In this document: positions 34,639-61,384 of the stretch, in pieces
How the letters are laid out: the number at the start of each line of letters is the position of its first letter
Numbering within the stretch: position 1 is the first letter of the stretch
DNA from: Bradyrhizobium genosp. L
GTDB lineage: Bacteria; Pseudomonadota; Alphaproteobacteria; Rhizobiales; Xanthobacteraceae
Length of the DNA stretch: 64,000 bases
Assembly (NCBI RefSeq): GCF_015624485.1
Contig: NZ_CP061378.1
Coordinates: forward strand, 2,976,001 to 3,040,000
Reading direction: 5' to 3'
The notes under the pieces: model-generated
What the model saw: the letters and a program-made list of their open reading frames with translations, nothing else
What the model was told of the DNA's origin: nothing
The model's database searches: none
Position numbers and translations under genes: made by a program

Positions 34639-34655
34639 TTTCGGGAGCGTTCGGT

Positions 34656-43249: not shown

Positions 43250-43265
43250 GACTGTCTCCGTCTGT

Positions 43266-44911: not shown

Positions 44912-44931
44912 GCCGGCACTCCTCGTCCGAA

Positions 44932-45195: not shown

Positions 45196-46548
45196 ATGGC
45201 TGACCAGGTTTTTGCAGGCACGATTGTTCTTCCCGACCGCGTGATCGACAATGGCTACGTCCTTATCGGCGACGGCAAGGTTCAGGCGGTCGGCGCGGGT
45301 GCTGCGCCGTCCGGCGAGAAGCACGGCGGTGCCGGTTTCCTCGTGCTGCCCGGCGCCATCGATGCGCAGGTGCACAGCCGCAGCCAACTCGGGCAGGAAG
45401 ATTTCATCTGGTCGACGCGCAGCGCCGCGGCCGGCGGCGTCACCACGATCGTCGACATGCCCTATGACGACAATTGCCTGATCGCGACTGCAGAGCGGTT
45501 TCGCACCAAAGTGAAGGAAGCCGGCGCACAGGCGCGCGTCGACTTCGCGCTCTATGCCACGATCGATCCGACCGAGGGCGCGGCGCGAGTGGACGAACTG
45601 GTCGATGCCGGCGCCGCGGCCTTCAAGTTCTCGACGTTCGGGACGCATCCGACGCGTTTTCCACGGATTTCGCCGCAATTGCTTTATGCGTGCTTCGGCA
45701 AGGTCGGAAAGCGCGGCCTGATCGCCGGCATCCATAATGAGAACGACGAGATGGTGCGGGCATTCATGGCCGAGGTCGAGGCCAGCGGGGTCACCGACTA
45801 CACCGCGCATGGCCTGTCGCGGCCTCCGGTGACGGAGGCGCTCGCGACCGCGGAGGTCTACGAGCTCGGCGCCGCGGCCGGCTGTCCCGTGCACATCGTG
45901 CATTGCTCGATCGGGCGCGGCTATGAGCTCGCTGCGGCCTACCGCGCGCAAGGACATGGTGCGACGATCGAGGCCTGCGTGCACTATCTCACGCTCGACG
46001 AGGAGAACGATGTCCGCCGGCTCGGCGGCAAGGCCAAGATCAATCCACCGCTGCGTCCCCGCAAGGAGGTCGAAGCGCTCTGGCATCATCTGGCCGCCGG
46101 CAATGTCACGATCGTCTCGACCGATCACGTCAGTTGGTCGGAAGACCGCAAGACCGATCCGAACATGCTGAAGAATGCGTCGGGGATTCCCGGGCTCGAG
46201 GCGCTCTACGGCCTGCTGCTGAAGGGGCTCGACCAGCGCGGCCTGCCGCTGACCCATGCCGCGCGGCTGCTCGCACTCAATCCCGCGGCCTTGTTCCGGA
46301 TCACGCATGTCAAGGGCGCGCTCGAGATCGGCCGCGATGCGGACATCGTGCTGATGCGGCGCGATCCCCATCGTTACAGCGCAGCCGCCAGCGGCAACAA
46401 TTTCGTGTCGTGGAGCCCCTATGAGGGGATCGAGCTGCCATTCCGCGTCATCGAGAGCTATGTTCGCGGTGAATGTGTCGCGGCTGATGGGGAGGTGCTT
46501 GCCAAGCCCGGCAGCGGCCGCTTTGTCAGTCCATTGCGTGCGCACTGA
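45196..46548 (+). CDS. Hydantoinase/dihydropyrimidinase-family amidohydrolase with altered metal motif
   Basis: The 450-residue protein is of the cyclic-amidohydrolase family. The carboxylated-Lys region is FKFSTFGTH, later His ligands are in GIHNENDE and VHIVHCS, and the catalytic Asp is in STDHVSW. The first motif, normally D-x-H-x-H, reads D56-A-Q-V-H60, so Gln replaces the first metal His. In the inferred pathway it would open hydantoin-5-propionate to N-carbamoyl-L-glutamate. It is followed after 12 bases by an N-carbamoyl-amino-acid hydrolase gene. A GAAGAGAAACG site precedes the ATG. Dihydropyrimidinase or allantoinase activity is an alternative. Confidence 0.85.
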   Translation: MADQVFAGTIVLPDRVIDNGYVLIGDGKVQAVGAGAAPSGEKHGGAGFLVLPGAIDAQVHSRSQLGQEDFIWSTRSAAAGGVTTIVDMPYDDNCLIATAERFRTKVKEAGAQARVDFALYATIDPTEGAARVDELVDAGAAAFKFSTFGTHPTRFPRISPQLLYACFGKVGKRGLIAGIHNENDEMVRAFMAEVEASGVTDYTAHGLSRPPVTEALATAEVYELGAAAGCPVHIVHCSIGRGYELAAAYRAQGHGATIEACVHYLTLDEENDVRRLGGKAKINPPLRPRKEVEALWHHLAAGNVTIVSTDHVSWSEDRKTDPNMLKNASGIPGLEALYGLLLKGLDQRGLPLTHAARLLALNPAALFRITHVKGALEIGRDADIVLMRRDPHRYSAAASGNNFVSWSPYEGIELPFRVIESYVRGECVAADGEVLAKPGSGRFVSPLRAH

Positions 46549-46560
46549 CGGACAGGATCG

Positions 46561-47829
46561 GTGACGAAATCCAATCTTCCGCTCGATGCCGGCCGCCTGT
46601 GGTCCGACATCATGGCGCTGGCTGACATCACCGATCCGGCGCGCCCCTATACGCGCCGCTCGTTCACGCAGCGATTCCTGGATGGTCGCGCCTGGCTTAC
46701 GCAGCGTTTCGCCGAAGCCGGCCTGACGACCCGGATCGATACTGCCGGCAATCTGATCGGGCGGATCGAGGGGCGCAATCCCGCGCTCGGCGTGATCGCG
46801 GTGGGTTCGCACAGCGATACCGTGCCGTCAGGCGGTCGCTTCGACGGCATTGCGGGCGTGGCGACCGGCCTGGAAATCGCTCGTGCGCTGCGCGAGTCCG
46901 GCACGCGATTGGATCACACGCTCGAGATCATCGATTTTCTCGCCGAGGAGCCTAGCGAATACGGCCTGTCCTGCGTCGGCAGCCGCGGTATGACGGGCTC
47001 GCTCGACGACAAGATGCTCGATCTGGCCGAGCCTGGCGGCGAGAAGCTGCGGGACGCGCTGCGGCGGGTCGGCGGCGATCCGGATCGGTTGCCGGAGGCG
47101 CGGCGCAGCGACATCAGCGCCTTCCTCGAGCTGCATATCGAGCAGGGCATTGTGCTCGAATCGCAATCGCTCGACATCGGTGTGGTGTCGTCGATCGTCG
47201 GCATCCGCCGTCTCGAGATCATCTTCGAGGGCGAGGCGGACCATGCCGGAACCACGCCGCTGCACTTGCGCCACGACGCGCTGGTGGCGGCTGCCGCCAC
47301 GGTCGGCATCGTGTGCCGGGTCGCAGAGCAGCTCGACGGCGAAGGCGCGGACTATTTCGTCGCGACGGTCGGCATCCTTGGGGTCGAACCATCGGCATCG
47401 AACATCGTGCCTGGCCGCTGCCGTCTCGTCATCGATGCGCGCACCACCAATTCTGCACTAACGACACGTTTCATCACGGCCCTCGATCGCGAAAGCGAAG
47501 CGGCCGCGAGCGCGGCGCGGGTTCGGCGTAGCGCGTTCACCACGCTCTCCGACGGACCGCCGGTCGCTTGCGATCCGGCCTTGCAGGCCTTGCTGCGCGA
47601 CGCTGCGCGCGATCTTGGCCTCAGCCAGACCGACCTTCCGAGCGGTGCGGGCCATGATGCCGCCTTCATGAGCCGCATCTGCCGCTCGACGATGGTGTTC
47701 GTGCCGTGCCGGGCCGGCAAAAGCCATGCGCCGGAGGAGTGGGCGGAACAGGACGCGGTCGCGGCGGGCGCCGCGGTGATCCTTCAGGCGGTGAAGGCGC
47801 TCGATCAGTCGCTGCAACCAGGCCGGTAG
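46561..47829 (+). CDS. N-carbamoyl-L-amino-acid hydrolase / allantoate amidohydrolase family (M20)
   Basis: The 422-residue dinuclear metal hydrolase has ligands in GSHSDTV, GGRFDGIAG, LAEEPSEYG, LELHIEQG and the C-terminal KSHAPEE, with GAGHDAAFM nearby; all are intact. It belongs to the HyuC/AllC group, which cleaves a carbamoyl group from N-carbamoyl amino acids or allantoate, giving the amino acid, CO2 and ammonia. Beside a hydantoinase the best guess is N-carbamoyl-L-glutamate. The start is GTG at 46561. It is convergent with the double-LysR regulator gene, 12 bases apart. Confidence 0.88.
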   Translation: MTKSNLPLDAGRLWSDIMALADITDPARPYTRRSFTQRFLDGRAWLTQRFAEAGLTTRIDTAGNLIGRIEGRNPALGVIAVGSHSDTVPSGGRFDGIAGVATGLEIARALRESGTRLDHTLEIIDFLAEEPSEYGLSCVGSRGMTGSLDDKMLDLAEPGGEKLRDALRRVGGDPDRLPEARRSDISAFLELHIEQGIVLESQSLDIGVVSSIVGIRRLEIIFEGEADHAGTTPLHLRHDALVAAAATVGIVCRVAEQLDGEGADYFVATVGILGVEPSASNIVPGRCRLVIDARTTNSALTTRFITALDRESEAAASAARVRRSAFTTLSDGPPVACDPALQALLRDAARDLGLSQTDLPSGAGHDAAFMSRICRSTMVFVPCRAGKSHAPEEWAEQDAVAAGAAVILQAVKALDQSLQPGR

Positions 47830-47841
47830 GTTGCCGGCGGC

Positions 47842-49692
47842 CTAATCGGCGCCGCCCGACTCGGACAATTTTCGTCGCAGGATATTGACGAGGCCGCGTT
47901 CCGGCTCGCTCAGGGTCCGCTCTCCGGAATAGATCACGTAGAGCCGCCGTGCGATCGTCGGCTCGATGATCGGATGCGCGACGAGGTCGCCACCTTCGAT
48001 CTCCCGCGCCACCGCGGAGGCGGGAAGCACCGTGCAGAGAGGCAGGCGCGCCAGCAGCGACACCGCCATCGGCAGCGCGTCGATCTCCATGACGGGCTGG
48101 ATCTTCAGGTCTCGCTCGGAGGCGGCGTTCTCCAGCAACTGGCGCAGGCCAAAGCGGTTGGTCGGCAGCGCGAGTTTGAGCTGGGCCAGATCGGCAAGGC
48201 GCACGGGGCCGCTGGGCAGCAGCCGGTGCGATCGGTGCGCGATGGCGGCGAGGCCTTCCGACGAGCCGAGCGGTAGCCGCGGCATGTGCGGCAGCGTCGT
48301 CTCGACGATCGCGACGCCGACGAGGCCGCGGATCACCCAGTCTTGCAGGGTGCCGTTGGGTGCCTCCTGAAACACCAGCTTCAGCGCCGGATAGCGCGCG
48401 CGGATTTCGATGGTGGCATCGGCAATGCGATTGACCAGGAAGCCGTGCTGGTTAACCGACGGCAGGATGCCGACCACGATTCGCCGCCCCTGCGACAGCG
48501 TCGCGCCGTCGTCGTTCGCCGACAGCCGGCGAAAGCCCGCTTCGATCAGAGCAGCGAAGCGCGCAAAGCGATTGCCCTTGATGGTGGGAACGACGCCGTC
48601 GCCCTTGCGTTCGAACAGCGCGCCGCCGAGCGAGTTTTCGAGCTTGTGCAGCTGTTCGCTCAGTGCAGGCTGGCTGATATTGGCGCCCCGCGCGGCGGCG
48701 GAGACGCGGCGGACGCGGTGGATCAGATTGAAATAATGCATCTGGCGCAGGCTGACGACCGGCCGTTCAGGGCGCCCCGGCCGCTCAGTGGCGAGCGCGG
48801 CCTTCAGGTGCCGCACGAACAGGTTGGTCGCAGCATTTGGCTCGGAAGACCGTGCCACCAGCTCCATGGTCAAGCCATGCTCCGGATTGACCAGCACGAC
48901 GTTGGAAAGCCCGAGCCGGGGTGACATCAGGCTGCGCGGTACAAAGATGGCGGCATCGGCGTAGTCGTCGAGGGTGCGCGGCAGGTCGCCCGGATGATCG
49001 TTGAGAAAGCGCACGCCGGTCATCTTGTGCCGGCTGAAATAGCGATCGGCCTGCTCGACAAGAGGCGCCGCGAGCATCGGCACGACGATCCGGCCGGACA
49101 GCAATTCTGCGGCATCGGGAGGTTTGCGTGTGGTGGCGGGCAGGCGGAGTGCAAAGACCCAGGGGTCGGAGAGAAGCACCGTTTCCTGCCTCGATTTGCG
49201 GTAGCCGGCCTCGCCGAGGCCTATCGTGACGTGGCTCCGGTCGACCCCGCCCCAGTCGTCGGCGAGCGTCGTGACGTGCGGAAAATCCCTCTCGTCCTTC
49301 CATTGCGGGTCGACGAACACGTCCGGCCGCTCGGCCGCAATCTTGTCGATGGCCTGGCGGAGCGCCCGGCTGACGCCGCCGATCGTGAAGGTCAGGTTGA
49401 TGTCGACGATGAGATGCCGCAGCCTGGCTTCGGCCGACGTCGCGACGTGGCGGCGCGCGAACATTTCGGCGACCAGCAGCGGCTCGGCGGCGCGCATCAG
49501 GGCCCGGGCCGCCTCGGTCGGATAGAGTGTGTTGTTGGAGCGTCTGAACAGGCTGACGCCGAGATCCTCGCCAAGCGCCTTCAAGGTCGTGCTCAGCGTT
49601 GAAACGGCGATGTCGAGTTCGTCGGCCGCGCGCGCCAAGCTCGTGGCCCTGCAGGTCGTCACGAAATAGGCGAGGGTGCGCAGTTCAACCAT
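47842..49692 (-). CDS. Tandem double LysR-family regulator (two full LysR proteins in one chain)
   Basis: One 616-residue frame encodes two complete LysR units. Unit 1 has a winged HTH at residues 1-62 (MVELRTLAYFVTTC, LDIAVSTLSTTLKALGEDLG) and an effector domain at about 90-300. Unit 2 has an HTH at about 313-374 (VSLRQMHYFNLIHRV, ISQPALSEQLHKLENSLGG) and an effector domain at about 395-610. No stop or frameshift lies at the junction (RPGRPERPVVSLRQ). The ATG at 49692 has AAGAGG upstream; the longer open frame beyond it is antiphase to ubiD. It is divergent from the long ubiD-to-TPR operon and convergent with the hydantoinase pair, and probably regulates both. Confidence 0.9.
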   Translation of the reverse strand: MVELRTLAYFVTTCRATSLARAADELDIAVSTLSTTLKALGEDLGVSLFRRSNNTLYPTEAARALMRAAEPLLVAEMFARRHVATSAEARLRHLIVDINLTFTIGGVSRALRQAIDKIAAERPDVFVDPQWKDERDFPHVTTLADDWGGVDRSHVTIGLGEAGYRKSRQETVLLSDPWVFALRLPATTRKPPDAAELLSGRIVVPMLAAPLVEQADRYFSRHKMTGVRFLNDHPGDLPRTLDDYADAAIFVPRSLMSPRLGLSNVVLVNPEHGLTMELVARSSEPNAATNLFVRHLKAALATERPGRPERPVVSLRQMHYFNLIHRVRRVSAAARGANISQPALSEQLHKLENSLGGALFERKGDGVVPTIKGNRFARFAALIEAGFRRLSANDDGATLSQGRRIVVGILPSVNQHGFLVNRIADATIEIRARYPALKLVFQEAPNGTLQDWVIRGLVGVAIVETTLPHMPRLPLGSSEGLAAIAHRSHRLLPSGPVRLADLAQLKLALPTNRFGLRQLLENAASERDLKIQPVMEIDALPMAVSLLARLPLCTVLPASAVAREIEGGDLVAHPIIEPTIARRLYVIYSGERTLSEPERGLVNILRRKLSESGGAD

Positions 49693-49765
49693 CGGACCTC
49701 TTGTCGCGGCAGCATAGCCACTCGACCGGTCGGCGTCATCCGGCTTTCGATTTTCCCTATGTGCT

Positions 49766-49782
49766 GGTTTAGTCGATAGACC
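49766..49782. promoter_or_regulatory. Candidate operator between the double LysR gene and ubiD
   Basis: GGTTTA-N5-TAGACC is a near-perfect inverted repeat (one mismatch) in an AT-richer stretch of the divergent promoter region, about 75 bases from the regulator start. Its position suits a LysR-type binding site; nothing else supports it. Confidence 0.3.
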
Positions 49783-49851
49783 GATGGACCGCACGGTTCC
49801 GGCCGATATGATCGATCTCGGGATGTCGTCCACTATGGACGCGGGAGCGAG

Positions 49852-51261
49852 ATGGATTTGCGCGCGCAGGACACCGTGAAGCCCGAGGAAGCCGCTTCCA
49901 GGCAGTCGATGCGCGCGTTCTTGTCCGTGCTTGCCGATGCTGGCGACCTCGTCAGCATACCGGACGCGGTCAATCTCGATTACGACCTCGCCGCATGCCT
50001 CGCCGAAGCCGATAGCGGTCCAGCCCTGCGGTTTGTAGATGTCAAAGGCTCGGGCACCTCGACGCTGCCGATCGTCGGCAATCTGCTCAATTCGCTGCCA
50101 CGCTTTGCCCTTGCAATGGGCAGTACCACGCGTGACATGCAGGCCGCACTGATCGCCGCGATCGAGAAGCCGCTGCCGCATCGACTCGTCTCTTCGGCCC
50201 CCAGCCAGGAGCGAATTATCTCCACGCCGTCCTTGCTGGACGAATTGCCCATTCCACGATTCTTCGAGAAGGAAGGCGGTCCTTACATCACCGCTGGCGC
50301 GATCGTTGCCAAGGATCGGGCGAGCGGGCAGACCAATCTCTCGATCGCGCGGCTGATGCCGCTCGGCGGCAACCGCGCCTTCGTCGGCATCGCACCCAAT
50401 CATCACCTCGCGATCCTGGCGCGCGCGGCGCATGCACGCGGTGAGACGCTCGACATCGCGGTGTGCATCGGCAATCACCCGGCGGTGCTGATCGCGGCGT
50501 GCCTCTACCTCGGTCTCGGCGACGATGAACTGCCGATCGCAGGTGCCCTGCTCGGTGAGCCGCTCGAGGTGATCAGCTGCACGCAGTCCGATCTCTTGGT
50601 GCCCGCGCACAGCGAATGCGTGCTGGAGGGGAAGCTGGATGCCGGCGAGCCCTTCGTCGAAGGCCCCGTCAGCGAATTTCACGGTATGTACGAGACCTAC
50701 GGCGCCGGCATCGTCGCGACGTTTTCGCGACTGACGCGGCGGCACGACGCGACCTTCCAGGTCATCCTGCCCGGTTATCACCCGGAGCACTGCCTGCTTG
50801 GCGGTGTCGCGATCGCGGCCGGGTTGCGCCGCGTGGTGCGCAATGCGGTACCGTCGGTATACGAAGTCGCGGTCGGCGTTGGCGGCGCCGGGCGGCTGCA
50901 TGCCGTGGTAGCGCTGAGCACACCGCGCCCGGGCGAAGCCCGCAAGGCCATGTTCGCCATCTGGGCGGCCGTCAATTTGATCAAGCAGGTGATCATCGTC
51001 GACGACGACATCGATCCCTGGAATCCGATCGAGGTCGAACGGGCCTGCGCGACGCGCTCGCAGCCGGATCGCGATCATGTGGTGATACCGGGCGTTCGCG
51101 CCGACCGTTCCGAGCCGCTCGAACAAGGCGGCACCATTACCAAGCTCGGCATCGACGCAACGCGCAGAGCAGGCGACCGTGAGGACTGGGATCTGGCACG
51201 GCCGCCGGCGGCGGCGCTTGCACGCGCCCGAGATATCCTCAGCAGGCACAAGCTCATCTAG
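49852..51261 (+). CDS. UbiD-family prenyl-FMN-dependent (de)carboxylase
   Basis: The 469-residue protein has UbiD hallmarks: TNLSIARLMPLGGNRAFVGIAPNHH (prFMN and metal-binding Arg region), the catalytic Glu region GPVSEFHGMYETYG, and a C-terminal oligomerisation part. UbiD enzymes reversibly decarboxylate acrylic, aromatic or heteroaromatic acids. A matching UbiX gene lies 8 kb downstream in the same operon. The substrate is unknown; an imidazole- or thioimidazole-acrylate is possible from context. GGGAGCGAG precedes the ATG. It is the first gene of the operon. Confidence 0.9.
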   Translation: MDLRAQDTVKPEEAASRQSMRAFLSVLADAGDLVSIPDAVNLDYDLAACLAEADSGPALRFVDVKGSGTSTLPIVGNLLNSLPRFALAMGSTTRDMQAALIAAIEKPLPHRLVSSAPSQERIISTPSLLDELPIPRFFEKEGGPYITAGAIVAKDRASGQTNLSIARLMPLGGNRAFVGIAPNHHLAILARAAHARGETLDIAVCIGNHPAVLIAACLYLGLGDDELPIAGALLGEPLEVISCTQSDLLVPAHSECVLEGKLDAGEPFVEGPVSEFHGMYETYGAGIVATFSRLTRRHDATFQVILPGYHPEHCLLGGVAIAAGLRRVVRNAVPSVYEVAVGVGGAGRLHAVVALSTPRPGEARKAMFAIWAAVNLIKQVIIVDDDIDPWNPIEVERACATRSQPDRDHVVIPGVRADRSEPLEQGGTITKLGIDATRRAGDREDWDLARPPAAALARARDILSRHKLI

Positions 51262-51299
51262 GGATGGCAACGATCAACTCTCACTTCGCGGAGAAAGTC

Positions 51300-52487
51300 A
51301 TGTTGATACTGAACCTCAGGCCGTCGGCGCTCGGTGCAAAGAGCGTGTCGCGCCTGGCTTGCCTGATCTTCCTCGCCACCATCGCCGCGGCACCAGCCGC
51401 CCACGCCGATATCAAGATCGGATTCCAGGTGCCGTTGACCGGACCTGCGGCAACCGATGGCAAATCCGCCCAGATCGCCGGCGAGATGGCGGTCGAGGAC
51501 ATCAACGCGGCCGGTGGCGTGCTCGGACAGAAATTGCAACTCGTCACCTATGACGACCAGGCCAAGTCGGATCAGGCCATCTTCACCGCGAACAAGCTGA
51601 TCGGCGAAGACGGCGTCAAGCTCGTGGTCAACGGCAGTTATTCGGCGTCGGGCCGCGCCGCGGCGCCGGTGTTCCAGAAGGCCGGAGTCGTGATGATCTC
51701 GGCCTATGGCGTGCATCCCGATATCACGCGCGCGGGCGACTACATGTTCCGCCTGGTGCATCTTGGGCCGCCGCAGGGTGCGGCCACCGCGCTCTATATC
51801 GGCAAGACGCTCGGGCTGAAGAAGGTCTCGACCATCACCATGGACAACGACTATGGCCAGGCGACGATGGACGGCTTCCTCGAGGCGGCGCCGAAATACA
51901 GCGTCGAGGTCGTCAACAAATACAGCTACTCTTTGAAGGACCGCCAGTTCGGTTCGATCGTGGCGAGCGTCAAGCGCGATAACCCCGACGGGATCTACGC
52001 AACAGGCTATTTCTTCACCGGAGGCCCGCTGGTGGCCCAGCTTCGCGCCGCCGGCATCACCGTGCCGATCGTCGGCTCGCAGGCCTTCGATTCCGAGAAA
52101 TTCATCGAGATCGCGGGGCCTGCGGCGGAAGGCACCTACATCATCGACAGCTTCGATCGCGACCGTAAGGACGAGGCGCTGCAGAAGTTCTTCGCCGGGT
52201 TCAAGCAGCGTGCCGGCTACGCGCCCGAGGGCGTCGCCGCCATCACCTATTCGGCGGTGATGCTGATGGCCGACGGCATCAAGCGCGCCAACAGCGCCGA
52301 GCCCGACAAGGTGCGCGCCGCGCTGGCCGCCACCAAGGATTTTCCGCTGCTCGAAGGCAACATGAACGGCTTCAACAGCCTGCACGAGATGATCATGCCG
52401 ATCCAGGTCAATGCGATCAAGGACGGCAAGTTCAAGCCTGCCGGCAGCATCACCGATCTGAACGCATTCGCGCCACCCGAGAAGTGA
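51300..52487 (+). CDS. livK: ABC transporter substrate-binding protein, Liv family
   Basis: The 395-residue precursor has a signal peptide ending APAAHA near residue 37 and the LivJ/K-like mature start DIKIGFQVPLTGPAATDGKSAQIAGEMAVEDINAAGG (shown here only as a family block; key residues are GFQVPLTGP and AVEDINAAGG). I chose the ATG at 51300 because GGAG lies six bases upstream; an ATG at 51264 is possible. It follows ubiD by under 40 bases and leads livH, livM, livG and livF. The ligand is expected to be the substrate of this catabolic operon. Confidence 0.92.
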   Translation: MLILNLRPSALGAKSVSRLACLIFLATIAAAPAAHADIKIGFQVPLTGPAATDGKSAQIAGEMAVEDINAAGGVLGQKLQLVTYDDQAKSDQAIFTANKLIGEDGVKLVVNGSYSASGRAAAPVFQKAGVVMISAYGVHPDITRAGDYMFRLVHLGPPQGAATALYIGKTLGLKKVSTITMDNDYGQATMDGFLEAAPKYSVEVVNKYSYSLKDRQFGSIVASVKRDNPDGIYATGYFFTGGPLVAQLRAAGITVPIVGSQAFDSEKFIEIAGPAAEGTYIIDSFDRDRKDEALQKFFAGFKQRAGYAPEGVAAITYSAVMLMADGIKRANSAEPDKVRAALAATKDFPLLEGNMNGFNSLHEMIMPIQVNAIKDGKFKPAGSITDLNAFAPPEK

Positions 52488-52542
52488 TGGTGGCGGGGCG
52501 CGCGGGCCGGGGGTTCGCGCTCCCACCAGGAGGACAAATCCG

Positions 52543-53412: not shown

Positions 53413-54257
53413 GCGCCTATACGATCAGCATCGTCTCGATCATCGGCATCAACGTGATCCTGGCCACCAGCCTCAACATGATCTCAGGCTTTTGCGGTCA
53501 GATCAGCCTCGGTCACGGCGCATTCTTTGGTGCCGGCGCCTACGCGGCAGCGTTGGCCATGGTCGCGACCGCGAGTGTTCCGCTAGCGCTGCTGGCGGGC
53601 GCGGTCGCCGGCAGTGCGCTCGGCATCCTGGTCGGCTTCGCCTCGCTGCGGGTGCGCAGCGATTTCCTCGCCGTCTCGACCATCGGCGTCAACTTCCTGT
53701 TCGTCGGCTTTGTGCGCAAGCAGTCGTGGCTCGGCGGTGAGATGGGCATCAGCGGCATTCCTGCGACCGGGTTTGGCGCGTACGGCAACATGATCATGAT
53801 CCTGGCGCTGGCTTGCGCCACCGTTGCCTTCAGCCTCTATGTCAGCCGTTCCTGGATGGGATTCGCATTCCGCGCCGTTGGAGAGGACGAGCACGCGGCG
53901 GCGACGCTCGGGATCAGCGCTGGCGCCTACAAGCTTGCGGCGTTCGGGATCGGGACGGCGCTCGCGGGTCTCGCCGGCGCGCTCTACACTTTCTTCACCC
54001 AGTTCATCACGGTCGACGCATTCGACTTCATCCTGTCGGTGATGCTGATGGCCATGGTCGTGATCGGCGGCATCGGTTCGACCTGGGGCGTCGTCGCTGC
54101 CGCGATCGGGCTGACGCTACTGCCGGAGGCGATTCGGTTCGTCAACGACTACCGGCTGCTGGTGTTCGGCGGGATGCTGGTGCTGGTAATTCGCCTCGCG
54201 CCCGGCGGCCTCGCCGCGGTGGTCCACAGTCTCTTTGCTCGGGTGAGGAAGGCATGA
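53409..54257 (+). CDS. livM: Branched-chain-type ABC transporter permease LivM
   Basis: The 282-residue permease has LivM features: ATSLNMISGFCGQISLGHGAFFG near the N-terminus, the EDEHAAATLGISAGAYKLAAF cytoplasmic block, and FDFILSVMLMAMVVIGGIGSTWG near the C-terminus. Both ends overlap neighbours by ATGA (livH and livG), so the membrane and ATPase subunits are translationally coupled. In contrast to the first Liv system of the window, LivM here is not fused to LivG. Confidence 0.92.
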   Translation: MSAYTISIVSIIGINVILATSLNMISGFCGQISLGHGAFFGAGAYAAALAMVATASVPLALLAGAVAGSALGILVGFASLRVRSDFLAVSTIGVNFLFVGFVRKQSWLGGEMGISGIPATGFGAYGNMIMILALACATVAFSLYVSRSWMGFAFRAVGEDEHAAATLGISAGAYKLAAFGIGTALAGLAGALYTFFTQFITVDAFDFILSVMLMAMVVIGGIGSTWGVVAAAIGLTLLPEAIRFVNDYRLLVFGGMLVLVIRLAPGGLAAVVHSLFARVRKA

Positions 54258-55021
54258 GCGCGGTCCTCGAGCTCGCTGACGTGGCGGTCCGGTTCGGCGG
54301 CGTGCAGGCCGTTGGCGGCGTGACGTGCGCGGTGGCTACCGGCGATTTCGTCGGTCTGATCGGACCGAACGGCGCCGGCAAGACCACGCTGATCCGCATC
54401 ATCGCCGGGCTGCTGCGGCCGGATCGCGGCAAGGTGATGCTTGCCGGTTCCGACGTGACAAGCGATCCGACATCGACGCGGGTTCGGGCCGGCCTGGCGC
54501 TGACCCATCAGATCGTCCGTCCGTTCCGCGAGATGACCGTGCTCGACAACGTCATCCTGGCCGCGGGGATCGGCTATACCTCGGGACCACTGCGCGCGTT
54601 GTTGCATGTCAGCCGGCAACGCGAGGCCGAGCGTGCTGCGGAGATTCTCGGCGCGGTCGGGTTGGCGGGCACCGAGCGCAGGCTGGCCGGCGAGCTTCCG
54701 CTCGGACAGCTCAAGCGGCTCGAACTGGCGCGGGCGCTTGCCGTCGATCCCAAGGTGGTGCTGCTCGACGAGCCGCTTGCGGGCCTCAACCATACGGAGG
54801 CGTCAAAACAGGTCGAGACCATATCCGAGGTGCATCGGCGCGGTGTTACCGTCGTCCTCGTCGAGCACAATCTCGAGGAAGTCATGCGGGTGTGCCGCCG
54901 CCTCATCGTGCTGAACAATGGGATGGTGATCGGCGACGGTGAGCCACGCGAAGTGATGGTCGATCCTGCGGTCCAGGACGCCTATGTCGGAAGCGGAATG
55001 GTGACGCATGCTGACGCTTGA
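54254..55021 (+). CDS. livG: Branched-chain-type ABC transporter ATPase LivG
   Basis: The 255-residue ATPase has Walker A GPNGAGKTT, the Q-loop region LALTHQIVRPF, the signature position LPLGQLKRLELARAL (Leu-Gly-Gln, variant of LSxGQ) and Walker B VVLLDEPLAGL. The ATG at 54254 overlaps the livM stop; its own end overlaps livF by 14 bases. It pairs with LivF to power uptake. Confidence 0.92.
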   Translation: MSAVLELADVAVRFGGVQAVGGVTCAVATGDFVGLIGPNGAGKTTLIRIIAGLLRPDRGKVMLAGSDVTSDPTSTRVRAGLALTHQIVRPFREMTVLDNVILAAGIGYTSGPLRALLHVSRQREAERAAEILGAVGLAGTERRLAGELPLGQLKRLELARALAVDPKVVLLDEPLAGLNHTEASKQVETISEVHRRGVTVVLVEHNLEEVMRVCRRLIVLNNGMVIGDGEPREVMVDPAVQDAYVGSGMVTHADA

Positions 55022-55727
55022 TCATTTGAGCTGCGGCTACGGCGCCGTGGAAGCGGTGCGCGACGTCAGCCTCGACGTCCCCGCCGGCTCGATCTTTGCG
55101 CTGCTCGGACCGAATGGTGCGGGCAAGAGTTCGACGATCATGGCGATCATGGGCCATGTCGACATCCACGCCGGCCGCATCCACTTTGACGGCAACGACA
55201 TCACGCGCCGCCGGGCGGTCAACCGGGTCGATCTCGGCATAGCCGTGGTGCCCGAAGGCCGGCAACTGTTTTCGGACCTGACGGTCGACGAAAATCTGAC
55301 GATCGGCGGCTATGCGCATCCTTATGCGCGTGATGCGGCGAAGCGCGAGCGCGTGTTCTCTTATTTCCCGCGGCTTGCCGAGCGGCGTTCGCAATTGTCG
55401 GGATCGCTGTCGGGCGGCGAGCAGCAGATGCTCGCGATCGGCCGGGCCCTGATGGCCGAGCCGCGTCTGCTGTTGGTCGACGAGCTCTCGCTCGGCCTGA
55501 TGCCGAAGATGGTCGATCTCTGCCTTGGCGCGCTGACGCAGCTCAAACGGGACGGCATGACCGTGGTGCTGGTCGAGCAAAACACCGCGCGAGCGCTCGA
55601 TATCGCCGACAATGTCTGCGTGATGTCGTCGGGGGTGCAGATCTATCAGGGCACCGGGACTGAAGCGAAGGCAGCCGGTTCGCTGTTTGCCACGTTCCTC
55701 GGGATGAAAGAGCCGGGCCGGCCATAA
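55008..55727 (+). CDS. livF: Branched-chain-type ABC transporter ATPase LivF
   Basis: The 239-residue ATPase has Walker A GPNGAGKSS, the LivF-typical VVPEGRQLFSDLTVDENL, the signature LSGGEQQMLAIGRAL and Walker B LLLVDELSLGLMP. In Walker B the Pro that usually follows Asp-Glu is Leu; the catalytic Glu is kept. It starts inside the livG gene. The next gene, DUF917, follows after 33 bases. Confidence 0.92.
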   Translation: MLTLDHLSCGYGAVEAVRDVSLDVPAGSIFALLGPNGAGKSSTIMAIMGHVDIHAGRIHFDGNDITRRRAVNRVDLGIAVVPEGRQLFSDLTVDENLTIGGYAHPYARDAAKRERVFSYFPRLAERRSQLSGSLSGGEQQMLAIGRALMAEPRLLLVDELSLGLMPKMVDLCLGALTQLKRDGMTVVLVEQNTARALDIADNVCVMSSGVQIYQGTGTEAKAAGSLFATFLGMKEPGRP

Positions 55728-55760
55728 GCAATCAACGCGCACAATAAGAAGGAAGAAGAC

Positions 55761-56828
55761 ATGGCACGAATGCTGACAGCGGACGATGTGGAGGCCGGGC
55801 TCGTCGGCGGGTTGTTCCTGTCGGCGGGCGGCAGCGGTCGCAACGCCGTTGCCAAGAACCGCGGGCTTGGCCAGATGGCGCTTGACTATGGCGGCGTGCG
55901 GCTGGTCGGCATCGACGAGCTCGATCCGGATGCGCCTGTGATCACGGCCACCGCGGTCGGCGCACCCGGCTTTGCCAATTGGGCGATCCGCCCGCGCGAC
56001 AGCATCAACGCGGCACGGCGCCTGATCGAGCGATTCGAACGGCCGCCGGTCGGCGTGATCTGCGGTCATGTGCCGGGGTTCAACGCCTGGCTGGTCGCCG
56101 CCGCACTCGGGCTCGATTATGTCGATGCCGCCTCCAATGGGCGCGGTCATCCGACGGTGAAGATGGGCGGCATGGGGCTGGCGTCGCGGCTGGATCTTTC
56201 GATCACGCAGGTCGGCTGCAGCGGCAGCAGAGCGGAGAACAATGAATTTGCCGTCGTCGTCGACGGAGACATCGTCCGCACCTCGAACATGATGCGGCAG
56301 GCGGCGGTGATCAACGGCGGGCTGATCTACGCCGCGCGTGGACCGTTGAGTGCCGGCTACATCAAGGAGAATGGCGCACCGGGCGCCATCACGTTCCAGC
56401 TCGACCTCGGCCGCGCCATGCTGGCAGCGAGTGGCGCCGATCGTATCCGCGCCACCGTCGAGTTCCTCGGTGGCGAGCTGCTGGTCGAAGGCGAGGTCAC
56501 CGAGAACACCGTTGCCTATGGCGGCGGTTTCGATCTCGGCCAGATGAGGGTGCGCGGCAGCGGCGGCGAAGCCGTGCTCGGCGTCTACAACGAGTTCATG
56601 ACCGCCGATTTCGGTGGCAAGCGGGTCGCGACCTTCCCGGACATGATCGGGACGCTCGATCCGAACACCGGCGAGGTGATCTCGATCTCGGAATCGAAGC
56701 CGGGCGCGCATGTCGCCGTCATTGTCGCCCATCGGTCCAAATTCCCGGTCGGCAAGGGTGCGCTCGATCCCGCGGTATTCCCGGAAGTCGAGAAGGCCAT
56801 GGGTGTCGATATGCGTTCATATCTCTGA
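55761..56828 (+). CDS. DUF917 / S-methyl-thiohydantoin desulfurase (S-Me-THD) family protein
   Basis: The 355-residue protein has the full DUF917 (PF06032) pattern: LTADDVEAGLVGGLFLSAGGSG, VDAASNGRGHPTVKMGGMGL, TQVGCSGSRAENNEFAVVV and EVISISESKPGAHVAVIV. This family is now named after an enzyme that removes methanethiol from an S-methyl-thiohydantoin in bacterial breakdown of S-methylated ergothioneine-type compounds; I recall this as established and cannot check it here. The product hydantoin would go to the hydantoinase and carbamoylase at 45196-47829. It is followed closely by a glutathione transferase and a urocanase paralogue, the enzymes expected around such a step. Other DUF917 members may act on other hydantoins. 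Confidence 0.85.
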   Translation: MARMLTADDVEAGLVGGLFLSAGGSGRNAVAKNRGLGQMALDYGGVRLVGIDELDPDAPVITATAVGAPGFANWAIRPRDSINAARRLIERFERPPVGVICGHVPGFNAWLVAAALGLDYVDAASNGRGHPTVKMGGMGLASRLDLSITQVGCSGSRAENNEFAVVVDGDIVRTSNMMRQAAVINGGLIYAARGPLSAGYIKENGAPGAITFQLDLGRAMLAASGADRIRATVEFLGGELLVEGEVTENTVAYGGGFDLGQMRVRGSGGEAVLGVYNEFMTADFGGKRVATFPDMIGTLDPNTGEVISISESKPGAHVAVIVAHRSKFPVGKGALDPAVFPEVEKAMGVDMRSYL

Positions 56829-56842
56829 GTAGGGGGACGATC

Positions 56843-57454
56843 ATGCTGCGTCTGTACGACAGCCGGCTATCGGGAAATGCCTGGAAGGTCCGCATCCTGC
56901 TCACGCAGCTCGGTCTGCCGTTCGAGCGCGTCACGCTCGATCTCGCCAAGGGCGCGACATCAGATCCGGCGTTCCGCGCCAAGAGCCGCTTCGCGCGCGT
57001 GCCGGTGCTCGAGCTCGAGGATGGCCGCACCATCGTCGAGTCCGCTGCCATCATGCTGTATCTCGCCGAAGGAACGCGGTTTCTGCCGGATGATCGCTTC
57101 CTCCGTGCGGAGGTCGCGAGCTGGCTGACCTTCGAACAGGCCGATCTGTTGCGCGCACTGGCATTGCCGCGCTTCTATCGCATGCGTGGCATTGCCGATC
57201 AGATGGCCAGCCGCATCGCCGATTTTCAGGAAGGCGCTTATCCGGCGCTGGCGAAAGCCGATGTCTGGCTGTCATCACATGATTGGCTGGTGGACGGCCG
57301 CTACACCATCGCGGATATCGGCCTGTTCGGTTACGTCTCGATGGCGCATCAGGGCGGCTACGAGATGGAACGATTTCCGGCGATCGCGGCATGGCTCGCG
57401 CGGGTGAAGGCGCAGCCCGGCTGGGTCCCGTTGGTGGAGGAGACAGACGCATGA
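56843..57454 (+). CDS. Glutathione S-transferase family protein
   Basis: The 203-residue protein has the thioredoxin-like N-domain (LYDSRLSGNAWKVRILLTQLGL, then the cis-Pro region RVPVLELEDGRTIVESAAIMLYLAE) and the all-helical C-domain with YTIADIGLFGYV. The active-site Ser is probably S11 or S8 in the first loop (no Cys). It overlaps the urocanase paralogue by ATGA, so the two are made together. It may handle a reactive thio or electrophilic intermediate, such as methanethiol-derived species or the thioimidazolone, but this is inference. Confidence 0.85.
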   Translation: MLRLYDSRLSGNAWKVRILLTQLGLPFERVTLDLAKGATSDPAFRAKSRFARVPVLELEDGRTIVESAAIMLYLAEGTRFLPDDRFLRAEVASWLTFEQADLLRALALPRFYRMRGIADQMASRIADFQEGAYPALAKADVWLSSHDWLVDGRYTIADIGLFGYVSMAHQGGYEMERFPAIAAWLARVKAQPGWVPLVEETDA

Positions 57455-59109
57455 ACATTCCCGTACGCCGTGGCAGGGACGTCAAGGCCGGGCGCGGCAC
57501 CGAGCTACGCTGCAAGGGCTGGCGGCAGGAAGCGATCCTGCGCATGCTGGAGAACAATCTGGAGAATGGCGAAGCGCCCGACGATCTCGTGATCTACATG
57601 TCGGTGGCGCGCGCGGCGCGCGACTGGAAGAGTTTTGATCGCATCGTGGCGGCGCTCACCAGCATGCGCGAGGATCAGACCCTCGTCATGCAGTCGGGCA
57701 AGCCGATCGGTGTGTTTCCCGGGCAGGCGACGACACCGCTCGTGATCATGGCGAACGGCAACCTCGTCGGCGGCTGGAGCGACGAGGAGCACGTGCGCAA
57801 GTTCCACGATATGGGCTTGACCATCTACCCGGGCATGACGGCCGCCGCCTGGCAGTACATCGGCAGCCAGGGCATCTTGCAGGGCACCTACGAGACCTTC
57901 ATGGCAGTTGCGCGCCAGCATTTCGGCGGCACGCTGGCCGGCCGGCTGCTGCTGACCTCGGGCTGCGGCGGAATGAGCGGTGCCCAGCCGCTGGCGGGAA
58001 AGCTCGCCGGTGCGTCGACGCTGGTGGTGGAGGTCGATGCGGCGCGGATCGACCGCCGCATCGCCAGCGGCTATTGCGATGCGACGACTGACAATCTCGA
58101 CGAGGCGGTCGCGCGCTGGCTTGCCGCGCGGGATGCGCAGCAGCCATTGGCGCTGGCGCTCTGCGCGAACTCGGCGGTCGTGCTGCCGGAACTGGCCCGG
58201 CGCGGCATCGTGCCCGACATCGTGACGGACCAGACCTACCCGGATCCTTTGAAGGGATACGTGCCCGCTGAATTGTCGGTCGAGCAGGCGCGCGCGATGC
58301 GGCAGGATGATCCCGAGAAATTGATGGCGCTGGCACGGCAGTCGGTCGCCGGCCATCTTCGCGCGATCCTTGGCTTCATGGATCGCGGCGCGATCGCTTT
58401 CGAATACGGCAACAGCTTGCGCGCCGAGGCCCATTCGGCCGGCGTGGAGGATGCGTTCCGGATGGGTTCGTTCGTCGATCTCTACATTCGACCGCTGTTC
58501 TGCCAGGGAATGGGACCGTTCCGCTGGATCGCGCTGTCGGGCGACCCGCAGGACATCTATACGATCGACGAGATGATCCTCGAGACCTTCTCGTCGAACC
58601 ACCCGATCTCGTCCTGGATCAGGCTGGCGCGCGAGCACGTCAAGTTCACCGGCTTGCCTGCCCGCATCGGCTGGCTCGGCTATGGCGAGCGCAGCCGGCT
58701 TGCACTGCTGGTCAACGACGCCGTTGCCAGCGGCAGGATCTCGGCGCCGATCGCCTTCACCCGCGATCACCTCGATTCCGGCTCTGCGGCGCTTCCCTAC
58801 CGGGAGACCGAGAACATGAAAGACGGCTCGGATGCGATCTCGGATTGGCCGCTTCTCAACGCGCTCCTGAACTGCTCCAATGGCGCCGATCTCGTTGCCA
58901 TCCACGGTCTGGGCGGCCGCGGTGTCAGCGCCGGCGTCACGATCGTCGCCGACGGAAATCCGGCCACGGCGGAAAGACTGAAACGCGTGCTCGACGGCGA
59001 TCCCGGCATCGGTGTGTTGCGTCTTGTCGACGCCGGCTATGACATCGCAATCGAGCAGGCGGACCGGTTCGGCCTCTCGGCGACGGTGCCGCCGGGCTTG
59101 TCGGAGTAA
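57451..59109 (+). CDS. Divergent urocanase-family hydratase, candidate S-methyl-thiourocanate hydratase
   Basis: The 552-residue protein aligns along its whole length with HutU ([57 protein letters not shown]) and keeps the NAD-binding block as GCGGMSGAQP. It differs at pocket positions: YGG becomes [12 protein letters not shown] becomes [18 protein letters not shown] becomes GGWSDEEHV, and the urocanase signature [15 protein letters not shown] becomes HGLGGRGVSAG. A true HutU exists at 37081-38751, so this copy likely has another imidazole-acrylate substrate. The DUF917 neighbour makes S-methyl-thiourocanate the best candidate; N-methylurocanate is an alternative. The ATG at 57451 overlaps the GST stop. 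Confidence 0.88.
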   Translation: MNIPVRRGRDVKAGRGTELRCKGWRQEAILRMLENNLENGEAPDDLVIYMSVARAARDWKSFDRIVAALTSMREDQTLVMQSGKPIGVFPGQATTPLVIMANGNLVGGWSDEEHVRKFHDMGLTIYPGMTAAAWQYIGSQGILQGTYETFMAVARQHFGGTLAGRLLLTSGCGGMSGAQPLAGKLAGASTLVVEVDAARIDRRIASGYCDATTDNLDEAVARWLAARDAQQPLALALCANSAVVLPELARRGIVPDIVTDQTYPDPLKGYVPAELSVEQARAMRQDDPEKLMALARQSVAGHLRAILGFMDRGAIAFEYGNSLRAEAHSAGVEDAFRMGSFVDLYIRPLFCQGMGPFRWIALSGDPQDIYTIDEMILETFSSNHPISSWIRLAREHVKFTGLPARIGWLGYGERSRLALLVNDAVASGRISAPIAFTRDHLDSGSAALPYRETENMKDGSDAISDWPLLNALLNCSNGADLVAIHGLGGRGVSAGVTIVADGNPATAERLKRVLDGDPGIGVLRLVDAGYDIAIEQADRFGLSATVPPGLSE

Positions 59110-59124
59110 AGGAGGGCCGCGCCG

Positions 59125-59703
59125 ATGAATGCTAGTGCGCAGCGACGGCTGATCGTCGGCATTTCCGGGGCGTCCGGCGTCGTCTACGGGCTGCGCACGC
59201 TGCAACTGCTCCGCAACTCCGGGATCGAAACCCATCTGGTGATGTCGAAGACTGCGGAGGTGACCTTCGCCCACGAGACCTCAGTCAAGGTCGCCGAGGT
59301 CAAGGCGGCCGCCCACACCGCCTACCGCATCGATGACATGGCCGCGGCGATTGCCAGCGGCGGGTTTCGCACCGCTGGCATGATTGTCGCGCCATGCTCG
59401 ATCCGGTCGATGTCGGAAATCGCGACCGGCGTGACCTCGACCTTGCTGACGCGGGCAGCGGATGTCACGCTCAAGGAACGACGGCGGCTGGTGCTGATGG
59501 TCCGCGAAACGCCGCTGCATGCTGGCCATCTCAGGACGATGGCCGCGCTGTCGGAGATGGGTGCGATCGTCGCGCCGCCGGTGCCGGCGTTCTATACCAA
59601 GCCGCGGTCGCTCGAGGAGATGGTTGACCATACGGTGGGGCGGATGCTGGACCTCTTCGACATAGACATCGGCGGGGTGCCCCGATGGGGCGAAGATCGG
59701 TAA
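59125..59703 (+). CDS. UbiX-family flavin prenyltransferase
   Basis: The 192-residue protein is a UbiX-type flavoprotein, with VGISGASGVVYGLRTLQLL at the N-terminus, MIVAPCSIRSMSEIATGVTSTLLTRAADVTLKERRRLVLMVRETPLH in outline (key: APCS, LTRAADV, RETPLH) and the C-terminal VPAFYTKP. It makes prenylated FMN, the cofactor of UbiD enzymes. It is in the same operon as the UbiD gene at 49852 but separated by the transporter and thio-imidazole genes, so the pair is a true functional set. It starts 15 bases after the urocanase paralogue. Confidence 0.93.
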   Translation: MNASAQRRLIVGISGASGVVYGLRTLQLLRNSGIETHLVMSKTAEVTFAHETSVKVAEVKAAAHTAYRIDDMAAAIASGGFRTAGMIVAPCSIRSMSEIATGVTSTLLTRAADVTLKERRRLVLMVRETPLHAGHLRTMAALSEMGAIVAPPVPAFYTKPRSLEEMVDHTVGRMLDLFDIDIGGVPRWGEDR

Positions 59704-59707
59704 TCTC

Positions 59708-61384
59708 ATGGATCGCTTCAACCTCGGCAGCCACTCGCGAAAAGTATCGACGGCGTCGCCGGACGCGCAGCGCTGGTTCGACGCCGGATTGAACTGGTGC
59801 TTCGCCTTCAACAAGGCGGAAGGCGTCAAATGCTTCAGGAGGGCGCTCGAGTTCGACCCGGACTGCGTCATGGCGCATTGGGGCGTCGCCTATGGCAGCG
59901 GGCCGTTCTACAATCTGACCTGGCGGGATCTCGGCGAGCCGGAGGCGGTTGCGGCGACTGGCACGGCCTACGCCCATATCCAAAGAGCTCGCGAACTGGC
60001 GCATGGTGCAACCGAGCTCGAGAATCGCCTGGTTGAGGCGCAGGCCAGCCGCGTGCAACGACCGCATCCGGTTGCGCCCGAGGAGTACGATCGCTGGGAC
60101 GATGCCTATGCGGCGGAGATGCGTAGCGTCTATCAGCAGCATCCCCACGACAGTGACGTCGTCGCTTTGTACGTCGAGGCCTTGATCACGCGCACCCCGC
60201 GGCGTCTCTGGGATGTTCGTACCGGCGCGCCGGCATCGAACTCTGATGTCGTCGAAGCGCTCGATGCCTGCGAGCGCGGCATCGCACGTGCTCCGAAGCA
60301 TGCTGCGCTGCTGCACCTGCATATCCACATCCTCGAAATGTCCGACGAACCCGAGCGTGCGCTGGCGTCGGCGCAGGCGCTTGGCCCGCTATGCCCGGAT
60401 GCCGGTCATCTCAATCATATGCCCGCGCACGTCTACATGCTGATCGGGGATTACGAGAGCGCGAGGCTCACCAGCGAGAAAGCGATCGTGGCCAATGACA
60501 AGTTCCTGGCCTATGCGGGACCGCTGACCCCGTACACGACAGCCTGCGCGCACGATCTCCTGCTCATGATGCACGCCTCCATGTTCATGGGCCGGTACGG
60601 CGATGCGACCACCGCCGCGGACAAGCTGCGCAGCATGATCACGACGGACGTTCTGCGCGTTGCAGGCCGACCGAAGTTCTCGACGAGCCTCGAGGGCTAT
60701 TACTCGATGACAGCGCACGTGATGGTCCGGTTCGGGCGCTGGCAGGACATCATCGACGCGCCGCTGCCCGGCGATCCAGGCCTCTATCCCGTCTCGACGG
60801 CCATGCTTCACTACGCCAAGGCGGTCGCGCATGCGACACTGAACCAGTTCCCCGAAGCCGAGGCCGAACGTACGCACTTTCATCAGTCGCTCGCGCGCAT
60901 CCCGCCGCAGCGGAAGGTCTTCAACAACAGCGCACGCAGCATCCTGGGCGTGGCTGAGAAGATGCTGGACGGTGAGTTGAACTATCACCAGGGGAACTAT
61001 ACGCGCGCCTTTGAGTGCCTTCGTGAGGCCGTCGTTCGCGACGACAATCTGGAATATGTCGAGCCCTGGGCGTGGATGCATCCACCGCGGCATGCGCTTG
61101 CGGCGCTGTTGGCGGAGCAGGGCCATTTCGCCGAAGCCGAGCAGGTCTATCGCGACGATCTGGGGCTGAGCGGGAAAATCCAACGCTGCGCGCAGCACCC
61201 CGACAATGTCTGGGCGCTGCGTGGTCTGGCTGAATGCCTCGAACACCGCAACGAGACGGTCGAGCTGGCTTCGGTTTCGAGGAAACTGGAAGCCGCGACG
61301 GCGTTGGCAGACGTTCCGATCAATTCGTCCTGCATGTGCCGCACGACCGCCAGCTCGCTGAAGGCGAACCACTGCTGCCATTGA
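59708..61384 (+). CDS. TPR-repeat protein of unknown function with Cys-rich C-terminus
   Basis: The 558-residue protein has helical repeat units throughout, for example FNKAEGVKCFRRALEFDPDC near 30-55, ERGIARAPKHAALLHLHIHILEMSDEPERAL near 190-225 and LAALLAEQGHFAEAEQVYRDDL near 460, which fit tetratricopeptide repeats. The last ~25 residues contain SSCMCRT and end NHCCH, four Cys and a His that could bind metal or form disulfides. There is no signal peptide. It starts 4 bases after the ubiX stop and is the last gene of the operon, convergent with hutH. Its conserved position suggests a link to the pathway, possibly as a scaffold or enzyme; I do not recognise a defined function. Confidence 0.75.
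   Translation: MDRFNLGSHSRKVSTASPDAQRWFDAGLNWCFAFNKAEGVKCFRRALEFDPDCVMAHWGVAYGSGPFYNLTWRDLGEPEAVAATGTAYAHIQRARELAHGATELENRLVEAQASRVQRPHPVAPEEYDRWDDAYAAEMRSVYQQHPHDSDVVALYVEALITRTPRRLWDVRTGAPASNSDVVEALDACERGIARAPKHAALLHLHIHILEMSDEPERALASAQALGPLCPDAGHLNHMPAHVYMLIGDYESARLTSEKAIVANDKFLAYAGPLTPYTTACAHDLLLMMHASMFMGRYGDATTAADKLRSMITTDVLRVAGRPKFSTSLEGYYSMTAHVMVRFGRWQDIIDAPLPGDPGLYPVSTAMLHYAKAVAHATLNQFPEAEAERTHFHQSLARIPPQRKVFNNSARSILGVAEKMLDGELNYHQGNYTRAFECLREAVVRDDNLEYVEPWAWMHPPRHALAALLAEQGHFAEAEQVYRDDLGLSGKIQRCAQHPDNVWALRGLAECLEHRNETVELASVSRKLEAATALADVPINSSCMCRTTASSLKANHCCH

Follow-up and report, generated by a model that had tools for sequence, protein, structure and literature searches.

A UbiD decarboxylase clade accompanying ErtD and ErtE in a predicted S-methyl-thiourocanate catabolic locus of Bradyrhizobium

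Why would an operon apparently for the catabolism of S-methyl-thiourocanate begin with a gene for a UbiD-family decarboxylase? The question is raised by a 64,000-nucleotide stretch of Bradyrhizobium genosp. L (contig NZ_CP061378.1, positions 2,976,001 to 3,040,000; hereafter, the window), from a Bradyrhizobium-like genome assembled as a single 7.40-Mb contig, in which the ErtD/ErtE gene pair and an operon at 49852–61384 are embedded in a complete histidine utilization (hut) cluster. The initial annotation of this locus, made from the sequence, took UbiD and its partner UbiX for an added step of S-methyl-thioimidazole catabolism and, together with a Liv-type transporter and a tetratricopeptide repeat (TPR) protein, for the sign of an undescribed entry branch. 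Our analysis assigns the hydratase and desulfurase of the operon to a known route, and the new part is a UbiD clade that accompanies ErtD and ErtE, the enzymes at the end of that route. Fungi, soil and animals all contain ergothioneine and its methylated form, and what becomes of the two in the environment is known only in part. If a UbiD clade tracks ErtD/ErtE in different genera, the end pathway would have a second entry, and enzymes dependent on prenylated flavin mononucleotide (prFMN) would gain an imidazole- or hydantoin-type substrate.

The predicted S-methyl-thiourocanate route

Every gene named in the initial annotation lies where it had been placed: by coordinates and family scores, the hydantoinase-like and N-carbamoyl hydrolase genes, the Liv genes, DUF917, a glutathione S-transferase (GST), a urocanase paralogue, UbiD and UbiX are all present. 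Four of the products exceed the curated cut-offs of NCBIfam models (given throughout as bits/cut-off), namely, the hydantoin-5-propionate amidohydrolase ErtD (45196–46548, + strand; NF058538, 744/600), the M20-type N-carbamoyl-L-glutamate amidohydrolase ErtE (46561–47829, +; NF058540, 589/520), the DUF917 protein, an S-methyl-thiohydantoin desulfurase (S-Me-THD; 55761–56828, +; NF058532, 551/450), and the urocanase paralogue, an S-methyl-thiourocanate hydratase (57451–59109, +; NF058531, 956/880), the nearest named matches of which come from Bradyrhizobium. Because all four family assignments exceed these cut-offs, the route proposed in the initial annotation, from S-methyl-thiourocanate through hydration, loss of methanethiol, hydantoin-5-propionate and N-carbamoyl-glutamate to glutamate, is supported at the sequence level. 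It is not new: this is the already known S-methyl-ergothioneine/S-methyl-thiourocanate pathway, reflected in the names of the NCBIfam models, and the locus is a further member of it. The Hut pathway proceeds through imidazolone-propionate and formimino-glutamate, the places of which are taken here by hydantoin-5-propionate and N-carbamoyl-glutamate.

Compared with the known S-methyl system (NF058531, NF058532, 8q9u, 8q9v), the window has the same hydratase and desulfurase, close together in one operon, as well as ErtD and ErtE, and adds UbiD, UbiX, a tandem LysR regulator and the TPR protein, with HutH as the sole lyase of the histidine ammonia-lyase (HAL) family found. With ergothioneine utilization (ergothionase, NF058530, NF058529, ErtD and ErtE), it shares ErtD, ErtE and the order of the chemistry, but the hydratase and desulfurase remain below the cut-offs of the thiol-branch models for thiourocanate hydratase (NF058530, 721/930) and thiohydantoin desulfurase (NF058529, 283/440). 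The closest solved chains of the hydratase are 8q9v and 8q9u, labeled urocanate hydratase in the Protein Data Bank, which we take to be the S-methyl-thiourocanate hydratase from Seebeck's laboratory. The altered pocket noted in the initial annotation was borne out by alignment: residue 407, presumably the counterpart of Cys410 in the active site of Pseudomonas urocanase, is Gly in 27/27 S-methyl hydratase rows, Ala in 7/7 thiourocanate hydratases and Cys in 16/16 urocanases (some rows share one genome), and 14 further positions likewise separate S-methyl from urocanase rows, for a total of 15, each at least 90% uniform within either group. The genome's own HutU, encoded 19 kb away (37120–38736), is 52% identical to this paralogue.

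The UbiD clade and its genomic contexts

The putative prFMN-type decarboxylase UbiD (49852–51261, +; three UbiD Pfam domains) is encoded by the first gene of the operon. The intergenic gaps from UbiD through TPR measure −14 to 55 bp; hence, a single operon is likely. ErtD and ErtE form a separate pair, parted from UbiD by the divergent tandem-LysR gene.

In a phylogenetic tree with 20 UbiDs of the genus as controls, 17 UbiDs formed one group with support of 100/100, and a second tree, with plasmid-borne members added, recovered 22 rows as one group against four controls, again at 100/100. Two loci are on neither tree and were placed by similarity: L006, with a UbiD cut to 175 amino acids (aa) by the contig end, and L147 (genome G324), with a UbiD containing an internal stop. 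With L141 and L005 counted as one genome, ErtD and/or ErtE was identified in 20 of the 24 clade loci (ErtD in 15; ErtE, at ≥45% identity over 150 aa, in 18) and, at the same thresholds, in none of the 20 control UbiD stretches of 20 kb each, which were taken from 26 weaker UbiD matches in a single genus; amidohydrolases of 25–27% identity were present in 7 of these 20. The four clade loci without an Ert gene are L006, L151 (an 8.4-kb contig with nothing within 2.9 kb past the LysR gene), L207, and L237, which is cut at the stretch end; the overlapping stretch L007 from the same genome has ErtE, which would raise the count to 21/24. One of the 20 positive loci, that of Rhizobium tropici (L243, 9714–9959), has only a 95-aa ErtE-like piece (41%) directly before UbiD, perhaps a decayed ErtE. 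Thus, in the search for co-occurrence that the initial annotation had called for, UbiD emerged as a genuine partner that tracks ErtD/ErtE, and UbiX was found in only three of 24 S-methyl loci.

Three taxonomic samples were surveyed as well. Of 146 genomes sampled from the genus, four carry UbiD at ≥75% identity, and exactly these four carry the hydratase at ≥87%; in one further genome, where the hydratase is 64% identical, the UbiD reaches just 35%. Among 296 genomes sampled from the family, eight have the hydratase (E≤1e-200), and of these eight, the five with a hydratase of ≥79% have UbiD (E≤1e-80) and the three at 62–64% do not; UbiD at that threshold is present in 11 of the 296, nine of them with ErtD and/or ErtE nearby, the exceptions being G368, where the contig ends inside UbiD, and G149, with neither on its 8.4-kb contig. 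In the class sample, ErtD exceeds its cut-off in 5 of 385 genomes and UbiD (E≤1e-95) is found in four, with three genomes in common, including that of the window.

The genes around the hydratase were surveyed in 24 distinct S-methyl loci and 7 thiourocanate loci, where some stretches are short, so that the counts are lower limits. UbiD is present in 8/24 and 4/7, respectively, and was not seen in the remaining 16 and 3 within the stretches examined. The same clade is combined with ergothioneine utilization genes in L142, L145, L146, L147 (by similarity only) and L242. Seven loci (L139, L205, L209, L240, L241, L243 and L246) contain UbiD, UbiX and ErtE and/or ErtD, with neither hydratase nor desulfurase in the stretch, among them loci of Allorhizobium ampelinum plasmid pAtS4e (L240), Ensifer canadensis (L241), Rhizobium tropici (L243) and Rhizobium jaguaris (L246). 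L143 and L144 also lack both genes next to UbiD and ErtD and/or ErtE, and their genomes hold them elsewhere. Genome G464 combines a UbiD/UbiX/ErtD/ErtE locus (L205) with a separate thiourocanate cluster (L206) that has its own ErtD/ErtE and a HAL-like gene devoid of the 4-methylidene-imidazol-5-one (MIO) cofactor motif, with no UbiD in the stretch. An Ert-type desulfurase was not found in two UbiD-carrying genomes: in G670 (400 contigs), PF06032 matched nothing at E≤1e-5, and the sole PF06032 protein of G014 scores 102 bits against the cut-off of 450. On the UbiD tree, contexts with and without the hydratase are interleaved, implying at least three changes, and the link to ErtD/ErtE extends to Rhizobiaceae and Thalassospira. 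Because the clade stands by ErtD/ErtE with the thiol, the S-methyl or no hydratase and desulfurase, the parsimonious reading groups UbiD with ErtD/ErtE in one module, separable from the enzymes that remove sulfur, which would make up a second module ending in the same two enzymes. Neither UbiD in ergothioneine catabolism nor the S-methyl-thiourocanate enzymes appeared among the matches listed in the open-licence PubMed Central literature, which does not cover subscription journals; it is for this reason that we regard the association of the UbiD clade with ErtD/ErtE as the new part.

Two of the hydratase-less loci, L240 (13755–14687) and L205 (9276–10205), encode, beside the UbiD–UbiX pair, a protein of the phosphoenolpyruvate mutase/isocitrate lyase family that is 91% identical between A. 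ampelinum and G464, together with a Dpp-type binding protein (74%). It is a possible hint at the substrate of the UbiD module.

Candidate roles of the decarboxylase

In the window UbiD, Arg167, Glu270 and Glu275 are invariant across 17 aligned UbiDs (14 from the clade and 3 controls), and His313 aligns with the His of the HmfF EHLLLGG stretch. The triad and the three domains are shared with HmfF and the indole-3-carboxylate decarboxylase AnInD, but the window protein belongs to a separate clade (100/100) with a GIA[PKA]NHHL stretch of its own, evident in an alignment from which L003 and the housekeeping UbiD were excluded because of stops in the stretches cut. Among solved chains, HmfF is the best match by sequence (255 bits, versus about 108 bits or less for Fdc1-type enzymes). 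The AlphaFold2 model (mean predicted local distance difference test score, 88) retrieved HmfF at rank 1 (38% identity, template modeling score 0.86), followed among distinct enzymes by AnInD (30% identity), with the first Fdc1 chain at rank 50. Neither by bits nor by fold rank is the Fdc1 branch closest, and the predicted structure and sequence place the protein nearest to the ring-acid decarboxylase HmfF. Another UbiD, HudA, forms a prFMN adduct with imidazole, according to a passage in PMC7976604.

We tentatively favor a reading in which the locus combines, inside the hut cluster, two catabolic modules that converge on the same final pair of enzymes, with UbiD running parallel to the S-methyl-thiourocanate route. 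In the first module, S-methyl-thiourocanate would be taken up by the Liv system, hydrated by the urocanase paralogue (57451) and stripped of methanethiol hydrolytically by the desulfurase (55761), and the product would be converted by ErtD and then ErtE to glutamate, as the curated families suggest. The second would unite UbiD, supplied with prFMN by UbiX, with ErtD and ErtE, in many cases together with the tandem LysR; here, prFMN-dependent decarboxylation would let another compound, a carboxylated one of the imidazole or hydantoin type, enter the shared ErtD/ErtE end. The acid reaching UbiD may itself come from a lyase reaction, as HAL-like neighbors hint. A broader version, which we put forward with less assurance, is that rhizobia and other alphaproteobacteria possess a sulfur-independent module in which an acid of the imidazole or hydantoin type loses its carboxyl group to the dedicated UbiD clade and the product is opened by ErtD/ErtE, frequently accompanied by a tandem-LysR regulator and in certain genomes by a MIO-less HAL-like lyase, and that this module was repeatedly joined to the thiol and S-methyl branches because of the shared ErtD/ErtE.

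Several observations weigh against this two-module interpretation. The window UbiD is probably co-transcribed with the first module, which would also fit a step on an S-methyl substrate. The comparison with the controls is weaker than its numbers, as these look like one orthologous group and thus amount to one comparison rather than 20 independent ones, and many clade loci are mutually related as well. In G670, ErtD and UbiD are on different contigs; in L207, UbiD stands beside a HAL-like protein with no Ert gene in the stretch, and the respective genome, G587, is not among the 8/385 with an ErtD match (assumed to be the class sample). The absence of the hydratase and desulfurase from plasmid-borne loci covers the stretch only, and in the ErtD and ErtE trees, UbiD-linked and unlinked copies are not separated. 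The tandem LysR and UbiX are found in only 12 and 10, respectively, of the 24 clade loci. The link of UbiX to the UbiD/ErtD/ErtE module is weak because UbiX is absent from 5 of the 8 S-methyl loci with UbiD and present in all 20 control stretches, and the window copy is closer to those of the controls (75–81%) than to those of the seven hydratase-less loci (49–65%). Furthermore, a passage in PMC7976604 cautions that the position of a UbiD in the tree is not always predictive of its substrate.

The foremost alternative, which we consider rather unlikely, is the entry branch of the initial annotation, whereby UbiD would decarboxylate a ring- or side-chain-carboxylated (S-methyl)thioimidazole to yield the hydratase substrate. 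It would account for the placement of UbiD in the same tight operon as the hydratase and for its presence in the 8 S-methyl and 4 thiourocanate loci, but not for the 16 and 3 stretches, some of them short, in which it was not seen, nor for its position beside ErtD/ErtE where no hydratase or desulfurase is in the stretch. Those 16 loci led us to reject the idea that the S-methyl route always requires UbiD. Of the proposed UbiD/UbiX step, the pair itself is real, but the evidence speaks against placing it on S-methyl-thiourocanate, and an undescribed entry remains conceivable at the hydantoin/carbamoyl end rather than at that compound.

An entry through UbiD would gain room from the lack of another source of the hydratase substrate. 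Ergothionase, the trimethylamine-lyase of the HAL family, resembles HAL but lacks the MIO cofactor (PMC13405746). The PF00221 search of the window genome (G000) yielded a single match, hutH, and thus no ergothionase; because the same search detected MIO-less HAL relatives in other genomes, such as G464 and G686, an ergothionase in the window genome probably would have been detected. Given the lack of an ergothionase candidate, S-methyl-thiourocanate is probably imported ready-made or produced by a non-HAL enzyme, and direct import by the Liv system would be the simplest inference. S-methyl-ergothioneine has been measured in mouse urine (PMC8471778). Over 24 chosen genomes, PF00221 matched at E≤1e-10 in 16; no match was obtained in 6 of the 18 UbiD-carrying genomes searched (G053, G048, G253, G303, G368 and G324), some of which are fragmented or 89–92% complete, or in G168 and G207, two genomes that have an S-methyl locus but lack the UbiD. 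Four of these genomes (loci L006, L007, L008 and L140 of G368, G253, G303 and G053; completeness of 92% for G368 and 89% for G303) keep hutU, hutI and other hut genes with no HAL-family gene found, which would fit urocanate as the input in place of histidine. Near other S-methyl clusters, HutH-like proteins without the Ala-Ser-Gly triad of MIO (L244, 18215–19708; L009, 20321–21599) are candidates for an S-methyl-ergothioneine trimethylamine-lyase.

We regard as improbable a side, overflow or detoxification branch in which UbiD, by analogy with Fdc acting on cinnamate, would decarboxylate (S-methyl)thiourocanate or urocanate to a vinylimidazole. Urocanates are indeed heteroaromatic acrylates, and HAL-family proteins, some of them acrylate-making, occur in 8 of the 24 UbiD-clade stretches: hutH in the window and L004, and others in L142, L205, L207, L209, L243 and L246. 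However, both the bit scores and the fold ranks given above favor HmfF over Fdc1, and ErtD/ErtE would be unneeded for a vinyl product. The HAL-like proteins near UbiD in L207, L209, L243 and L246 form a family with 47–90% mutual identity and 21–25% identity to HutH, and those of L207, L209b, L243 and L246 lack both the Ala-Ser-Gly triad and the His of the HutH SHAAG stretch, to which we attribute a role in imidazole binding; L142 and L205 contain instead a HutH-like protein with the triad and this His. A MIO-less HAL-like gene of that kind was not found in the window genome by the PF00221 search.

That UbiD, UbiX and TPR are passengers of an unrelated aromatic-acid pathway, landed in the operon by chance, is very improbable: UbiX and TPR are lineage-specific and most S-methyl loci show no UbiD, but the comparison of 20/24 clade loci with 0/20 controls rejects this idea for UbiD, leaving it possible for TPR and UbiX. 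Least credible is a mere hut variant, in which the paralogue would act on urocanate only and the desulfurase would have another role, given that, although the locus lies inside a hut cluster and the hydratase also exceeds the broad urocanate hydratase model (694/375), the S-methyl-specific model is above its cut-off, the pocket residues are changed and the genome has a true HutU 19 kb from the paralogue.

Neighboring genes

The operon genes can be sorted into core (the hydratase and desulfurase, with ErtD and ErtE), recurrent (Liv and GST), module-linked (UbiD and the tandem LysR) and local (UbiX and TPR) components. The Liv system comprises a LivK-type binding protein (51264–52487, +; Peripla_BP_6), LivH- and LivM-type permeases (52543–53412 and 53409–54257, +; 54% and 55% identity to annotated branched-chain amino acid ATP-binding cassette (ABC) permeases of L244) and LivG- and LivF-type ATPases (54254–55021 and 55008–55727, +; 53% and 61% identity to annotated ABC ATP-binding proteins of L244). 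Liv genes are found near the hydratase in 12/24 S-methyl and 3/7 thiourocanate loci, so that the transporter is less foreign to the pathway than had been proposed. The GST-like protein (56843–57454, +; GST_N/GST_C), present in 17/24 and 0/7, respectively, appears from these counts to be a recurrent partner of the S-methyl branch. The flavin prenyltransferase UbiX (59125–59703, +; above the cut-offs of TIGR00421 and NF004685, general UbiX-family models) and the TPR protein (59708–61384, +; TPR Pfam matches, no NCBIfam match) occur in only 3/24 and 4/24 S-methyl loci, and in no thiourocanate locus, and are therefore apparently lineage-specific. A second ubiX adjoins a second ubiD at 6.19 Mb of the genome.

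The tandem LysR regulator (47842–49692, −; ATG at 49692) has two HTH_1 domains, that is, two LysR-type helix-turn-helix domains in one protein of ~616 aa, and one LysR_substrate domain. Matches of at least 550 aa, including distant ones of about 30% identity, were found in 12 of the 24 UbiD-clade loci, the window included, and in 0/20 controls. One promoter-like site (49785–49812) lies between the LysR and UbiD genes, and the promoter and terminator scans yielded sites no more numerous than in shuffled sequences. HutC control of the ErtD or UbiD promoters was rejected: the sole HutC-like site in the window with at most two mismatches to the motif used is at 40054–40065, between hutI and hutF, and such a site is also present in 10 of 100 shuffles.

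Left of ErtD, the hut cluster consists of HutD (36430–37080; PF05962, 163 bits), HutU (TIGR01228, 958/375) and HutI (38786–40042; TIGR01224, 464/298) on the − strand, followed by HutF (40118–41476, start codon approximate; TIGR02022, 654/413) and the HutC repressor (41473–42207; TIGR02018, 304/220) on the + strand; the histidine ammonia-lyase HutH (61416–62954, −; TIGR01225, 674/539) follows TPR at the right end. Between hutC and ErtD, three genes (42209–44968, −) encode an NMT1/SsuABC-like ABC transporter that reaches no curated NCBIfam cut-off and has homologues adjoining hut in L006–L008. An ornithine cyclodeaminase-like gene and a PhnD-like protein, the start of which has no obvious signal peptide by eye, lie at 34626–36493; the same pair directly follows the hydratase in L006, L007, L008 and L140, where the cyclodeaminase is 87–91% conserved, and hutH is also annotated under the match in 3 of the 15 plasmid matches listed.

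In L244, a molybdopterin S/N-oxide reductase (11650–13980) is encoded between the hydratase and ErtD; it may be the same as a protein family that occupies this position in L138 (6847–9195) and is also found in L009, L010 and L013. Further upstream in the window, two Phenol_Hydrox-type diiron monooxygenase subunits, a GroEL-like chaperonin and a sigma-54 activator (23875–33905) make up what looks like a propane/phenol-type monooxygenase operon unrelated to the locus.

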